From Pseudocoprococcus catus (lineage in GTDB: Bacteria > Bacillota > Clostridia > Lachnospirales > Lachnospiraceae), in contig NZ_JAAXCM010000032.1 in NCBI RefSeq assembly GCF_019734885.1, positions 1 to 64,000 of the forward strand: 64,000 nt of DNA. Reading direction: 5' to 3'. The position numbers and the translations under genes were made by a program. Below the pieces are notes generated by a model. It saw only the letters and a program-made list of their open reading frames with translations, made no database searches and had not been told where the DNA came from. How positions within the stretch are numbered: the first letter of the stretch is position 1; every line of letters starts with the position of its first letter. This document shows, piece after piece, positions 17,650 to 54,360 of the stretch.

Positions 17650-18066
17650 TATTCAATAAAACAAAGGCTTTAATCGGACGGTTATTAGCATAACCTCATG
17701 GGAATTTCACCCCGGCATGGTTCTCATGCCGCCCTACCCATTGCCTGCGACGCTCTTAACGCTCGGACTGTGGCTGTAAGGAAGTATCATTGTATATTCT
17801 GCGTGTCGTCGCCCGCAAGCCGCTACACTTGCTTTCCGGCGCGGTGTTGGTCGCTCGGCTGTCCGGGCGGGGATAACCTCACCCGGATAGCGTCATGGCG
17901 CACCCGCCGTATGGCTCGGCGCAAAAGGAACGTATCCGATTTGCCCTATGCTGCGCCGCCGTTATCTTGCGCCGCTTTCTTTGTCAAGGTTCAGAATGGC
18001 TTTGCTGCCGCGTCAGCAGCGGAACGGAAAAGGGGGAGAGAGAAAGCGTCCCGCCGCCGCTGCGGT
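17650..18066. other. non-coding stretch of the element, no supported gene
   Basis: About 415 bp of GC-rich DNA between TnpW and the Orf8-like gene. Long open frames on the plus strand continue antisense to the regulator genes and look spurious. A perfect hairpin CGGCATG/CATGCCG lies at 17713-17731. The stretch may carry recombination sites or an RNA. Confidence 0.4.
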
Positions 18067-20478: not shown

Positions 20479-20503
20479 AATATTTCTCCTTTTGCGCAAA
20501 AAA

Positions 20504-20540
20504 ATGCAGGTCAATTCTCAACATGAGCATTGACCTGCAT
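20504..20540 (-). terminator. second attenuator/terminator before the KTR gene
   Basis: A 12-bp stem (ATGCAGGTCAAT/ATTGACCTGCAT), extended by CTCA/TGAG in the loop, followed by TTTTTTT on the minus strand. It lies between the leader peptide and the KTR gene, so transcription must read through it. Confidence 0.75.
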
Positions 20541-20615
20541 TTATACATATAATACTACAACAAAATTAAGGCATAGTTTTTATACTATGTCTATACGTCG
20601 TTAGTTTTGTTGTAT

Positions 20616-20704
20616 AGCATACGCAAAATAAGCATGACAAAAAAGCCCATATTGAAAATGGGAAAAATCTTTTTTGATTTCAATGCTTATCGAATACGCA
20701 TGCT
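20616..20704 (-). promoter_or_regulatory. leader attenuator with competing antiterminator
   Basis: Terminator: CCCAT/ATGGG hairpin (20,646-20,662) followed by TTTTTT (20,644-20,639, minus strand). Competing pairing: the end of the leader-peptide frame (20,704-20,683) can pair with 20,635-20,616, just past the terminator (AGCAT...ATAAGCAT on both arms). Ribosome position in the leader would decide the outcome, as known for tet(M)- and erm-type leaders. Confidence 0.65.
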
Positions 20705-20719
20705 ATGTAACATAAACAT
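20687..20719 (-). CDS. leader peptide of the methyltransferase unit
   Basis: Ten codons, MFMLHSMRIR then stop. The second Met (20,713) is 7 nt after a GGGGGGG ribosome site and may be the real start (MLHSMRIR). Its coding end forms one arm of the antiterminator. It is the sensor of a ribosome-mediated attenuation system; this role is inferred from layout. Confidence 0.6.
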   Translation of the reverse strand: MFMLHSMRIR

Positions 20720-39765: not shown

Positions 39766-39936
39766 TCACTGTTGAGGGATAAGCCCCCGGCGCGTGACAT
39801 ACTCCGTTGCAAAACGGCGGTGTTCCGCTTCCTTTTCCCGCCAATACTCCCATAATGCAGCGTCGGCGGCTTCCGCAACATTCATTAAAAACCGTTCAAG
39901 CTGCTTTTGTTTTTCCTCTGCGCTACGTTTCCTCAT
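39766..39936 (-). CDS. small helical element protein
   Basis: 56 aa from the ATG at 39,936 with AGGAGG upstream; the longer frame has no ribosome site. Charged and helical (KRSAEEKQKQLERFLMNVAE). Function unknown. It overlaps the coupling-protein gene by 14 nt. Confidence 0.55.
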   Translation of the reverse strand: MRKRSAEEKQKQLERFLMNVAEAADAALWEYWREKEAEHRRFATEYVTRRGLIPQQ

Positions 39937-40342
39937 GGTCTGCGTCCTCCTGTAAGTCTGCTGCGTCAATCTCGTAATAGTCAAAAACCTCGTCGGGCTT
40001 GACAATGGCGGGGCGGCGTTTAAGGTGCTTTTCCATGTCAAAGGCGTTCTTCGGGTCTGCGTCGGATAGGTACTTGTATTTCGGGTGTTTCGTTATGTCG
40101 AATTTGTCCGAAAAGAACGGGCGCACCCCGCGTAGCTGCAAGATACATTTCCCTCCGTCCATGACTGCGATTTCATCTTCCGTCATAAGCTGCTTTCCCA
40201 ATTTCTGATAGTTCAGCCCATGCGAAAGCTCCCGCCCCCTTGTTTCGGAAGTGTTGAAGCTGTCTATCGTTTCCTTGCCTAAAATCTCCGATATTTCTTT
40301 GAGCGTGGTTTTTTCCTTGCCGCCCAAGAAAAGCGTGGTGTC
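39923..40342 (-). CDS. VirD4/TraG-like coupling protein, exon 2
   Basis: The last 139 codons of the coupling protein, beginning DTTLFLGGKEKTTLKEIS right after the group II intron. It carries the end of the ATPase core and a C-terminal tail rich in acidic residues. Joined in frame to exon 1 (42,859-44,247) it gives a 602-aa protein, the normal size for this family. It has no ribosome site and depends on splicing. Confidence 0.85.
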   Translation of the reverse strand, partial: DTTLFLGGKEKTTLKEISEILGKETIDSFNTSETRGRELSHGLNYQKLGKQLMTEDEIAVMDGGKCILQLRGVRPFFSDKFDITKHPKYKYLSDADPKNAFDMEKHLKRRPAIVKPDEVFDYYEIDAADLQEDADHEET

Positions 40343-42858
40343 ATGAGGTAAGGTTCAGCTCATCCTTTGCAGGACTTGCGTCCCCTCCCTCCCAAACCGC
40401 ACGTACACCTCTCGATGTATACGGCTTTCCGCTTATTATATTTACGGTATTAAGAATGAATCAGTTTATGACATTCAGGGCATACCACAAGAGTTTTCCG
40501 TCTCCTTTTGCGCATAAGGAGTACCCACTCCGCATTGCCCTTTAAGTCTTTTAGTTTCTTTACTTGATGGATTTCCAGATTTCTGCAATCCTTTCCACAA
40601 AGTTCACAGGTATGGCGTTCCACTCTCTGTTTCAGAGTGTTGGTTTTAGCGTATTTTGAGAACTGCGGAAGTTCGCTCACATTGTCAAACTTCGTAGCTG
40701 ATTCTTTTCGCTTAAACCCGTCTCTGTAAAAGGTCGTGATTTTCCTTCCTGCTCTGGTATCGTATGCGATTGTAAACAGACCTCCAACACAATATCTGCG
40801 CTTGATTTCGTGAACATTTGTTTTATACTTACAGGCAAATGTCTTGTACATACTGTACTTCATAAGATTGGCAAATCTGCCTATCTTGAAGGAATCATTT
40901 GCTATGGCATAATAGTTGTAAAGTCCACGAACTTCCGCATTATATCTTGCCAGAATCTCTATATCGCTTTGATTTACCAGTTTTCCTCTGTGTAGGGCTA
41001 CAAATCTTTCTTTTCCGTTTTCGTTAATCTTGATTTTGATTGCATGATATTCCAGTAACTTTCCCACCCATTTTTCTCTGGGTACAAGTAATTTCACCAC
41101 TCCTGCATTGCTTCTGATTTTGTATCCTCCTGCGGATTTCTTTAAATCCTGACTTCTGGATACCGTAATGTCATAGCCTAAAAATCTGGCTCTGTCTCCT
41201 GTATGCGTAACTTTGGTTTTGGTTTCGGACATTTCCAAATCCAGTTCTTCCCTGAGAAATCTGCCGACGTCAGCTTTCATCTGTTCTGCGTCCGCTTTGC
41301 TCCCAATTACTCCAATGATGAAATCATCAGCGTATCGGGTGTACTGAATCCGTTTATACGTCTCATCCAAAGGTTCGGTCGGAGTTAGCTGTCGTGTTTG
41401 CTTTTCAAGCATTTTCAAATGTTTATTGCGTTCCCAGCGTTCTTCTGGAGATAAATCCGCCCACTTCTTTTTGCCCATACATCTATAATAGGATGCCTTT
41501 TTGACAACTTTCTTGTAGTCGGAGTTCATTTGTTTCTTCTTTCCTCGGTTATATTTCTGTGCATATTCCTCCATAAATTTATCTAATTCGTGAAGGTACA
41601 CATTTGCAAGCACTGGACTGACACCTGAACCCTGCGGTACTCCGCTGTATGTCCGATTGTACGTCCATTGCTCCATATAGCCTGCTTTTAGAAATTTCCA
41701 GATGAGTTGTAGAAACATTTCATCATCAATACGTTTTCTCAGCAATCTGATGATTGTGTGGTGATTAAAACTGTCGAAGCAGGCGTGTATATCGCCCTCA
41801 ACAAACCAGTTCGTTCCCGTAAAGGTTTTCTGTATCTGGTATAATGCTGTCTGACAGCTTTTGTTTGGTCTGAACCCATGAGATGTTTTCTTAAACACAG
41901 GCTCATAAATGCTTTCTAAAATCATCTTCACTACTTCCTGCACCAGTTTGTCATTGCCCGACTGGATTCCCAACGGACGCTTTTTATTACTGTTTTTCTT
42001 AGCAATATATTCCCTGCGTGCAGGTTTTGGCAGGTAACTTTTATCTCGCATGGATTCAATAATCCTTTGGATTCTTTCGTCACTCATGCCATCAATAGTA
42101 GTTCCATCTGCACCGGCAGTCATACTGCCTGTGTTTGCATATATGTTTTTATATGCAAGCCAATAGAACTCTGGATTGTACAGATTCCGATATAATCTTT
42201 GAAACCTGTAAGATTCATTCTTTGACTTTTCCGTCAAACTACTTAATACTTGGATTGGATTTCTCAATGCCTCTCGCACCGTCCTTTCATATCGTATTAG
42301 TAAATAAGCTGCTCCCCTTCGCCATGTGAACGTCATTAACGTCTCAGACTACTATGGGAGCTGTGTGACCATGCCCGTTACCAGGTTTAGGTCATCCCCA
42401 GTTAGTATTTATGGAATTAGCGTTTCGTGTTGTCGGCACCGACTTTCGCCATTTACCCGCTGTCTTGCGGTTGTCCTTCCATGAGTATCGCTTGCTTTCA
42501 TAACTGCGAAATGAAACCAACATGGAATAGCATACGTTTCAATCCTTTTCGTATGCGGAGTGCGGATTCCCCCACTCTGGCTATCGTTCAGGCAGTTTAG
42601 CTTTGTACCTCATACACGAATTTTTATTCTTGAATTTTCAGATACACAGGATTAGTACCTTATCATTCAGGCTTTTATCCATTGACAAAAGCGACAACAT
42701 GCTACACTCCCCTTCGGGTTTCCCCTCTCGGATAAGTTGTAGAATAATAGGCTGTGATTTTTCATCACTTGATACTTTTACCTACTGCTTGCTAAAGGCA
42801 GTATTCCATAAATACCACGCCGCCGAATTTATAATGCGCTGGCGACTTCTGGGCGCAC
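40343..42858 (-). mobile_element. group II intron in the coupling-protein gene
   Basis: 2,516 nt. The 5' end GTGCGCCC fits the GUGYG rule and the 3' end is AT (AY rule). Domain V is at 40,394-40,426 (AGCCGTATACATCGAGAGG ... GTGCGGTTT). The ORF lies in domain IV. A candidate EBS1 (GCAGTT, 42,507-42,502) complements the last six exon bases AACTGC. The intron splits the codons TGC|GAC without loss, so spliced mRNA is intact. Confidence 0.9.
40450..42336 (-). CDS. ltrA: group II intron reverse transcriptase/maturase with HNH endonuclease
   Basis: 628 aa, LtrA type. RT domains with active site YTRYADDFIIG near residue 335 and GVPQGSGVSPVLANVYL near 235; maturase X domain; and C-terminal HNH (CELCGKDCRNLEIHQVKKLK ... 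VCPECHKLIHS). All parts look intact, so splicing and retrohoming are likely. The encoded frame is complete. Confidence 0.93.
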   Translation of the reverse strand: MTFTWRRGAAYLLIRYERTVREALRNPIQVLSSLTEKSKNESYRFQRLYRNLYNPEFYWLAYKNIYANTGSMTAGADGTTIDGMSDERIQRIIESMRDKSYLPKPARREYIAKKNSNKKRPLGIQSGNDKLVQEVVKMILESIYEPVFKKTSHGFRPNKSCQTALYQIQKTFTGTNWFVEGDIHACFDSFNHHTIIRLLRKRIDDEMFLQLIWKFLKAGYMEQWTYNRTYSGVPQGSGVSPVLANVYLHELDKFMEEYAQKYNRGKKKQMNSDYKKVVKKASYYRCMGKKKWADLSPEERWERNKHLKMLEKQTRQLTPTEPLDETYKRIQYTRYADDFIIGVIGSKADAEQMKADVGRFLREELDLEMSETKTKVTHTGDRARFLGYDITVSRSQDLKKSAGGYKIRSNAGVVKLLVPREKWVGKLLEYHAIKIKINENGKERFVALHRGKLVNQSDIEILARYNAEVRGLYNYYAIANDSFKIGRFANLMKYSMYKTFACKYKTNVHEIKRRYCVGGLFTIAYDTRAGRKITTFYRDGFKRKESATKFDNVSELPQFSKYAKTNTLKQRVERHTCELCGKDCRNLEIHQVKKLKDLKGNAEWVLLMRKRRRKTLVVCPECHKLIHS

Positions 42859-44247
42859 GCAGTTGCCGACTATGGTATCGGCGTTGTCCTTGTAGATTGC
42901 CTTTAGCTGTGACTGGCTCTGCAAGATGATTGACGCGGAGATTTCCCGGCTCCGTATGGTTGCGATTAGTTTCTCAAATTTGGGGATTTGCCCGATATTC
43001 GCAAATTCATCAAGTAAGCACCGTACATGGACGGGAAGCCGCCCGCCGTATTCATCATCTGCTTTGTCGCACAAGAGGTTGAATAGCTGTGTGTAGAGAA
43101 TACTCACGACAAAGTTAAAGGTGTCGTCGGTGTCGCTGATAATCACGAAAAGGGCGGTCTTTCTGTCACCTATGGTGTCAAGCTCCATTTCGTCGGTTTC
43201 CATAAGCTCCCGCAGCTCCTTAATGTCGAATGGGGCTAACCTCGCGCCGCATGAGATAAGTATGCTTTTTGCGGTCTTGCCCGCCGCCAGTTTGTATTTT
43301 TTGTACTGCTTGACTGCAAAATGTTCCGGGTCTTTTTCTTCCAGACGTTCAAACATGAGGTCAACCGGGTTCTGGAAATCCTCGTCGTCCTCGCGGGCTT
43401 CCGACGCATTTATCATTTCAAGCAGCGTCGTGAAGTTCTTCTCGTCCTCTGGGGCTTCATACCAGATATAGCCGATTAGTGCGGTGTAGTAGAGCTTTTC
43501 CGCTTTCACCCAGAAATCCTCGCCGGATTTTTCCCCGTCGCCTTTGGTGTTGGCGATAATGGTATTGACTAATTTCAAAATGTCCTTTTCGCTCCGCAGA
43601 TAGGCAAAGGGATTGTATTTCATGGATTTTTTGAAGTTAATCGTATTTAGCACTTTGATACGGTATTTGTACCGCTGCAACATTTTCCCGGTTTCCAAAA
43701 TCAGTGTTCCTTTCGGGTCAGTGACGATATACGACGTTGGAAAATCCTTTGACGTACATTGCATGAGCGACGGTTTCACAAAGAACCGGGTCTTGCCGCT
43801 GCCGGAACCGCCGATTACAAGAATATTTTTGTTTCTTGCGTATTTCGGCTGCTTCGGGCGGCTGTTCATGGTGAGCCGTTCCGTCTGCGTTAAGGGGATA
43901 TTGTTCTCAAATACCGGGTCTGTGTACGGCTTTATGTCGTCAGCCCCGCCCCAACGCGCCGAACCGTATTCTGTCCCGCGGCGGTATTTCTTCGCGTTCT
44001 TGCCTTTGGTGTAGATAATCAGCCGGACAATGACCGCCCCCGCAATGCCGATAAGTAAGTCTGCCGGGTGGAAGCTCGGCGCGATACTGGAAAAGGCGGT
44101 GGTAAAACCGTCCCCAAGATGTAGCAGCTTTGCGCTTGCGTCCGCGCCGGGGGATAGACGGACAGCCGCGCCCACTTTATCAAAGAGCCAGACAAAGAGC
44201 AGATACGGGAGATTTAGGATAAGCAGCTTCTTGATTTCCGGCTTCAT
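42859..44247 (-). CDS. VirD4/TraG-like coupling protein, exon 1
   Basis: 463 codons up to IVGNC, where the intron enters. Two N-terminal spans (about 8-25 and 63-80), Walker A IGGSGSGKTR near residue 147, Walker B CLLDEFANIG near 412. Unspliced mRNA would run on for nine codons to a stop, giving a 472-aa truncated protein. It links the relaxosome to the secretion channel. It overlaps the PcfB-like gene by 4 nt. Confidence 0.92.
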
Positions 44248-52958: not shown

Positions 52959-53177
52959 TCATAAATTTCGTATAAAAACAAAAAAGAACCTTTCTCTTCC
53001 TCTTCGGACTTTCATTCGATGGATAAAAAATCTTCTTTCGAATGTTACTCCGAATTTACAGCTATCCTCGTTGTTCAGAATAGCAATGTCTACTAATTTA
53101 ACGATTGATTGTATCGCACGCTTTTTCTCATCAGATGACATATTATCATTGATTCTAATAGATGGGCTAATCAACAT
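52959..53177 (-). CDS. hypothetical small protein
   Basis: 72 aa from the ATG at 53,177 with AAAGGGGTGTA upstream; the ATG at 53,198 lies before that ribosome site. It begins MLISPSIRINDNMSSDEKKR and ends in a basic segment. No family recognised. It lies behind regulatory repeat A. Confidence 0.45.
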   Translation of the reverse strand: MLISPSIRINDNMSSDEKKRAIQSIVKLVDIAILNNEDSCKFGVTFERRFFIHRMKVRRGRERFFFVFIRNL

Positions 53178-53279: not shown

Positions 53280-53366
53280 GCCTGATGCTGCTATCATAAC
53301 ACATCTCTTTTTGATAGCTGTTACCACGGTGGCATATTTTTGCAATTAGTCCACATCATGTAAATT
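53280..53366 (-). repeat. promoter-type repeat, copy A
   Basis: About 87 bp similar to copy B (54,229-54,315), with an identical 18-bp block CTATGATAGCAGCATCAGG-like at the downstream end and a TTTACA at the upstream end on the minus strand. In this copy the -10 is poor (AAAAAT). Precedes the small gene at 52,959. Confidence 0.5.
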
Positions 53367-53384
53367 GTATAAATGCAATGCCTT

Positions 53385-54277
53385 ACAAAAAAAGAAAAGC
53401 TCCAGTCATCACATATCCTATAAAACTGAAGCCTCTTTTGAATATCTCAATCACACCCACGATCCGGCCTTCGCCGTACATCCATGTCCTTCACCTATAT
53501 TCTGCCACCAGGAAGATAAGTCTGAGCTTCGGGGAGCGACCCCTCACTTCTTACCCCGGCTTACGCCCAAGCCTGCACAGGAATGGCTACCTGCAAATTT
53601 CACCGTCCATTCAGATTTTTCTACGCCTATTTCTGCCATACGGCTACTTTCACCGGCTACTTCCGTTATAGGCGGATTTCTCCGCCGTCAAAGCAGAGTG
53701 CATTGTTGGCTTTACCTCTGTCATACTGGCTGCCACACCGATACCCCTTAGGCTTATTCCTGCACCGCAGGCGTCTATTGCTGCACCCGGAAGTTCCGTG
53801 CAATTAAGTGCGAACATCTCTGCGATATGCGTTTTCGTTGACGCTTTCCGTCTCCCCGGGATTCATCACTGAATTCCAGCGGCCTCCCTGAGCAGGTATC
53901 CTTGCTCAGATCAACCGGACATCCTCACCATTTCGGCTCTTGGAAATTACCGCACACCTCGAAGTACTGGCGTACTTTATTCATCGAGTTGATCGCAGGC
54001 ATGATTCAAATATTCAAATCTCAAATATGAAGTTTTCATCAGGCTGAAGCTTCTGACCTTTTCGAATTAGTCTCTCCCGCCGACAAAGGTTATTATATAG
54101 GATGACTACGCATTTGTCATTCAACCAGCAGTTTAAAATAATAGTAACTGTTCAGAGCTAACATCCAAAATGCTACGCATTTCGTCGGTGTGGCGTATCC
54201 GCCGTACCACCGACAGGCTCTCTGTCCTCCTGATGCTGCTATCATAGCATACTCACTTTGTGAATCTGTTACCGTAA
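53385..54277 (-). ncRNA. candidate large structured non-coding RNA (about 0.9 kb)
   Basis: No open frame of note on the minus strand, but a promoter (copy B) upstream, a terminator (GGCTTCAGT/ACTGGAGCT then TTTCTTTTTTT) at 53,387-53,432, and many strong hairpins: GTCGGTG/CACCGAC around GGCG/CGCC (54,184-54,212), CTCGA/CGAG enclosing AAGTAC/GTACTT (53,957-53,986), TGAGCA/TGCTCA (53,888-53,909), CCTGC/GCAGG (53,759-53,771), GGCGGA/TCCGCC (53,671-53,686). Family unknown. The strand is set by the promoter and terminator. Confidence 0.5.
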
Positions 54278-54315
54278 TTGTAAATTTTATCATTTAGTTC
54301 ACATTGTGTAAATAA
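54229..54315 (-). promoter_or_regulatory. promoter-type repeat, copy B
   Basis: On the minus strand, TTTACA (54,312-54,307), exactly 17 nt, then TAAAAT (54,289-54,284). It ends with the 18-bp block shared with copy A. It points into the candidate structured RNA. Confidence 0.55.
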
Positions 54316-54360
54316 TATATGTTTAAAATTTCTTGCCTTGACTATCTCAAATCAACCATT

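Follow-up and report, generated by a model that had tools for sequence, protein, structure and literature searches.

A complete, probably functional ROOL RNA gene at a non-phage chromosomal locus of Pseudocoprococcus catus

What is encoded by a minus-strand unit of about 0.9 kb that lacks a long reading frame in the chromosome of Pseudocoprococcus catus? The unit lies in a stretch of 64,000 nucleotides (contig NZ_JAAXCM010000032.1, positions 1 to 64,000; referred to as the window). A sequence-only reading had proposed a large structured RNA and compared its size with OLE, ROOL and GOLLD, without being able to match it to any of them by eye; these are large, ornate RNAs of bacteria or phages, and all form homo-oligomers (PMC12286853). 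The search against Rfam suggested in that reading returned ROOL (RF03087), with an end-to-end match of 358.4 bits that is well above the gathering score (99.1) and covers the whole model. OLE and GOLLD gave no match at the locus with E values up to 1, leaving ROOL as the one name of the three that applied. The 0.9-kb unit itself is present; the conserved RNA is restricted to 53446-54012, and its ends are joined by a closing helix of 16 base pairs, counting G-U pairs.

53446-54012, minus strand: complete ROOL RNA (RF03087, model positions 1-574), defined by cmscan, covariation and conserved positions.
53991-54006, minus strand: 5' strand of the P1 closing helix, AAUCAUGCCUGCGAUC, pairing without gap with 53449-53464.
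53449-53464, minus strand: 3' strand of the P1 closing helix, GAUCGUGGGUGUGAUU, pairing with 53991-54006.

The loop and junction sequences conserved across the ROOL family were found in the window copy: 163 of the 191 strongly conserved consensus positions are identical, compared with 166 of the remaining 383. Approximately 24 model positions are gapped in the match, corresponding to a short variable linker. An Rfam scan showed no second ROOL in the 3.6-Mb genome. With the window copy, a known RNA class gains a new member in a stand-alone setting that is less common but compatible with the literature (PMC12191101).

Covariation was analysed in an alignment of 19 ROOLs (the window copy and 18 others), counting the pairs formed by the window sequence and using as controls the same pairs with 3' partners slid by 3-4 positions. 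The nearest relative, L041 (82% identical), differed from the window copy by 14 two-sided compensatory changes, 11 one-sided changes and 7 broken pairs; the slid controls gave 0-3 two-sided changes. ROOLs approximately 48-56% identical to the window copy showed 36-48 two-sided changes against 3-11 in the controls; values were 45 against 6-10 for L034 and 29 against 6-13 for L039, the most distant row. Across all relatives, each sequence contributed 14-48 two-sided changes against 0-13 after sliding, and the family structure is present in the window copy. As judged from these alignments, the pattern of compensatory changes is that expected of a selected RNA structure. A point on the other side is that, as aligned by cmscan, the window sequence forms non-standard pairs at 29 of 153 ungapped consensus pairings. 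A conserved protein frame in homologues, named in the sequence-only reading as a refutation, was considered and rejected: none is conserved, and the base pairs covary. The large structured RNA predicted from the letters was thereby borne out by both the full-length match and the covariation.

Candidate signals for an independent transcription unit were found on both sides of the RNA.

53384-53439, minus strand: intrinsic terminator, hairpin (53439-53390) and U tract, recognised by fold energy.
54284-54312, minus strand: putative promoter-like site TTTACA-17-TAAAAT, already described in the sequence-only reading (10 of 12 consensus bases).
54092-54120, minus strand: putative ROOL-proximal promoter-like site, ATGACA-17-TATAAT, with the top score in the region (11 of 12 consensus bases).

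The U-rich terminator noticed earlier corresponds to a strong hairpin (-18.6 kcal/mol, z -3.1) leading into a U tract; none of 200 shuffles was as stable. A simple terminator scan missed this hairpin because its loop limit was 8 nt. The region contains 8 promoter-like sites against 4.2 expected from shuffles, about a twofold excess, so that a promoter match is by itself weak evidence. Transcription would start near 54085 or 54277, giving a predicted transcript of approximately 700 nt from the 54120-54092 site or 890 nt from the 54312-54284 site. The absence of a long frame also held: in the ORF list, the longest minus-strand ORFs within the unit encode 55 and 58 amino acids, and the ORFs of 128 and 97 amino acids found at the unit are on the opposite strand.

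The distal promoter-like site is separated from ROOL by a leader of about 200 nt, part of which is repetitive.

54144-54203, minus strand: leader segment outside ROOL, consisting of the right half of a dispersed, MITE-like repeat that occurs about 40 times in the genome.

Complete copies of this repeat are about 150 bp long with inverted ends GTAACTGTTCAGAGC, and their A/T-rich flanks, in copies read by eye, resemble target duplications of 8-9 bp. In the window copy the left half is missing, and the ATGACA-17-TATAAT site sits downstream of the half that is present. Since the repeat is dispersed in the genome, the hairpins at 54203-54144 are not part of ROOL. The repeat also occurs on two phage scaffolds, neither of which carries a ROOL. 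Phage matches to the leader were discarded because they are due to this repeat.

The leader bears on whether the entire 0.9-kb unit could be a single RNA with an additional 5' domain absent from other ROOLs. The distal promoter-like site would transcribe the whole unit and the segment 54126-54222 folds well (z -3.2), but what folds stably in the leader is the half-copy of the dispersed repeat, the remaining segment, 54013-54090, is no more stable than its shuffles (z +0.8), and in relatives a tRNA or an ORF occupies the position of the leader. We consider this possibility very improbable. For the conserved ROOL with a leader outside it, the leader would be either retained or trimmed, and the RNA would close on P1.

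A second, local repeat was found around the distal promoter-like site and again behind the terminator.

54229-54319, minus strand: promoter-region repeat, copy preceding ROOL (76% identity to the other copy).
53281-53371, minus strand: promoter-region repeat, copy directly behind the ROOL terminator.
52959-53177, minus strand: orphan ORF of 72 amino acids behind the second repeat copy (ORF list).

The two copies share 18 identical bases, TATGATAGCAGCATCAGG, and no third copy exists elsewhere in the genome. The 72-amino-acid ORF has no recognisable relatives, with only sub-threshold matches in Pfam and PHROG and no relative in viral contigs. Based on the sequence of the paired repeats, it is possible that ROOL and this ORF could share regulation.

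Phage, prophage or tRNA-island locations are frequent but not obligatory in the ROOL family, and the window copy is in none of them. Genes for DegV, an inositol monophosphatase and an aminotransferase are found upstream of ROOL; the SRP RNA, a sigma factor and a DUF4349 protein are encoded downstream. No phage genes were present among the flanking proteins searched, leading us to reject a prophage setting, and the sole tRNA in the window is 46 kb from ROOL. This location is compatible with membership of the family because ROOLs outside prophages have already been described (PMC12191101). A conjugative element near 38-46 kb was considered as a carrier and rejected, as it is further off and was not seen to reach ROOL. 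A group II intron, with its maturase, interrupts the gene for the TraG-type coupling protein of that element (window 39926-44247). No ROOL-like plasmid DNA was found. In relatives, the degV homologues stand in a different gene order without these neighbours, which leaves no syntenic empty site for comparison.

Pattern scans for ROOL initially identified 14 viral and 3 genome contigs, and more were added in later scans. Rfam confirmed all of the initial contigs except L027, which contains too little of the RNA. At most viral loci ROOL is found among tRNAs, in some cases also with a tmRNA. A tree placed the window copy in one clade (support 97/97) with the ROOLs of L041 (Hominifimenecus), L042 (a Lachnospiraceae MAG) and L040 (a Mogibacterium MAG, two ROOLs). 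Like the window copy, to which they are 69-82% identical, these are all located among chromosomal genes without tRNAs. The sister of this stand-alone clade is a phage group with tRNA/tmRNA islands (L029/L031/L086). The closest sequence type was not found in viral contigs. The end branch of the window copy is short (0.058). ROOL is rare in the host family (4 of 240 genomes); among these, L045/L087 has a tRNA island and a ROOL identical to a viral one. A ROOL carrier with a named strain is Hominifimenecus microfluidus CLA-AA-H215. Two side observations concern other loci: the two L040 ROOLs are in tandem (L040:3840-5060) and approximately 71% identical to each other, and a viral contig (L039:2573-13665) carries a divergent ROOL together with a HEARO RNA.

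Could the window copy be a relic, the remnant of a decayed prophage that selection no longer maintains? The phage-borne sister group, the MITE-like repeat within the leader and the absence of a zinc-ribbon gene present in relatives (see below) are consistent with such a history, as is the low frequency in the family, which indicates that ROOL is often gained or lost. These points are set against an RNA of full length with a 16-bp P1 and an intact terminator, few broken and many compensated pairs relative to its homologues, the short end branch and the lack of any remaining phage gene nearby. We therefore regard decay as unlikely. Taken as a whole, the locus is very probably a complete and apparently functional chromosomal ROOL gene forming its own transcription unit. 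At the level of sequence, this rests on the full-length match, the conserved structure, the terminator and promoter-like sites, the non-phage setting and the placement in the stand-alone clade.

Other ROOLs form hollow, RNA-only hexameric or octameric cages (PMC12286853, PMC12515178, PMC12191101), and cryo-EM structures are available for ROOLs from env-120, Enterococcus faecalis, Ligilactobacillus salivarius and Firmicutes bacterium CAG:227. The window copy shares with these the conserved loops, the helices and a high covariation with the family; it differs in having no tRNA island or phage around it, promoter-like sites and a terminator of its own, a MITE-like repeat in its leader, and the short variable linker. 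By analogy with the solved ROOLs, it would self-assemble as a homo-oligomer into a hollow cage. Less certain is the origin of the stand-alone clade, which may derive from the ROOLs of phage tRNA/tmRNA islands or share an ancestor with them. Together with the L040-L042 loci, the window copy defines a stand-alone chromosomal clade that is open to study without phage.

For ROOL, neither a function nor a protein partner is known (PMC12286853). In the other members of the clade, unlike the window copy, a gene encoding a small zinc-ribbon protein is found no more than about 60 bp from ROOL.

L040:5116-5772: zinc-ribbon protein locus beside ROOL.
L041:1041-1352: zinc-ribbon protein gene beside ROOL.
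L042:2070-2477: zinc-ribbon protein gene beside ROOL.

Four such ORFs were found in the three genomes, each at most about 60 bp from ROOL or in tandem with an ORF that close to it. The L041 ORF ends about 26 nt before ROOL, whereas those of L042 and L040 start about 40-60 nt behind it; in L040, a second ORF follows the first. All four proteins start with a motif that follows the pattern KKCTNSxCRRxF...CPYCGKxYPRL. In the first L040 protein, the C-terminal domain of ribosomal L7/L12 is clearly recognisable (PF00542, 3e-10); a sub-threshold trace of this domain was detected in L042 and none in L041 or the second L040 protein.

A profile was built from these same four proteins, whose ORFs had been noticed through their adjacency to ROOL. 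It recovers the known members and has no other match within the three genomes. Besides the L041 and L040 proteins themselves, no further members were found in 397 genomes of the host family, 295 genomes of the order or 350 genomes of the Mogibacterium family. The profile search did not detect the protein in the window genome and gave no match in phages or viral contigs. Weak genome matches were set aside, as they involve the L12 part only and are mostly of ordinary L7/L12 length; two plasmid L7/L12 matches that were inspected are ordinary rplL operons. As the protein is rare, three occurrences next to ROOL are hard to put down to chance, and the gene may, on the strength of this genomic proximity, be a candidate for the first ROOL partner. 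It offers a concrete candidate that points to translation.

One reading of this linkage is that ROOL in the stand-alone clade works with a dedicated partner, the small zinc-ribbon protein (carrying an L7/L12 C-terminal domain in one instance), which would attach to the cage and connect it with translation factors or ribosomes. The protein would be encoded on the ROOL transcript or on one next to it; the window copy would either have lost this partner or rely on something else. The four ORFs next to ROOL across three genomes, the lack of other profile matches in those genomes and the lack of matches beyond ordinary L7/L12 in the 397, 295 and 350 genomes searched all argue for such a dedicated protein. 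Against it, the profile derives from the four proteins and may miss distant kin, the window genome belongs to the same clade and lacks the protein, and other ROOLs assemble without protein (PMC12286853). A clear L12 domain is found in one protein of four, and the predicted structure of the zinc-ribbon protein is poor (pLDDT 57), too poor to serve as a search query. We hold a dedicated partner to be possible, though only tentatively.

More broadly, it is conceivable but rather doubtful that a ROOL lineage outside phage tRNA islands became a host chromosomal gene, most of its members acting with a dedicated zinc-ribbon partner, one of them bearing an L7/L12-type C-terminal domain, as a cage RNP that engages translation factors or ribosomes. 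On this view the window copy would do without the protein or use a different one. Returning to the preferred reading of an apparently functional chromosomal gene, the host might retain ROOL for an effect of the cage at or close to the translation apparatus. A role in translation is indirectly suggested by the tRNA linkage in the sister group and by the zinc-ribbon genes beside ROOL in three other genomes of the clade, one of which encodes an L7/L12-type domain. Two further Rfam matches were recorded in the window, a pemK RNA at 17696-17793 and, barely above the cutoff, Enterococcus sRNA_1300 at 20497-20708.
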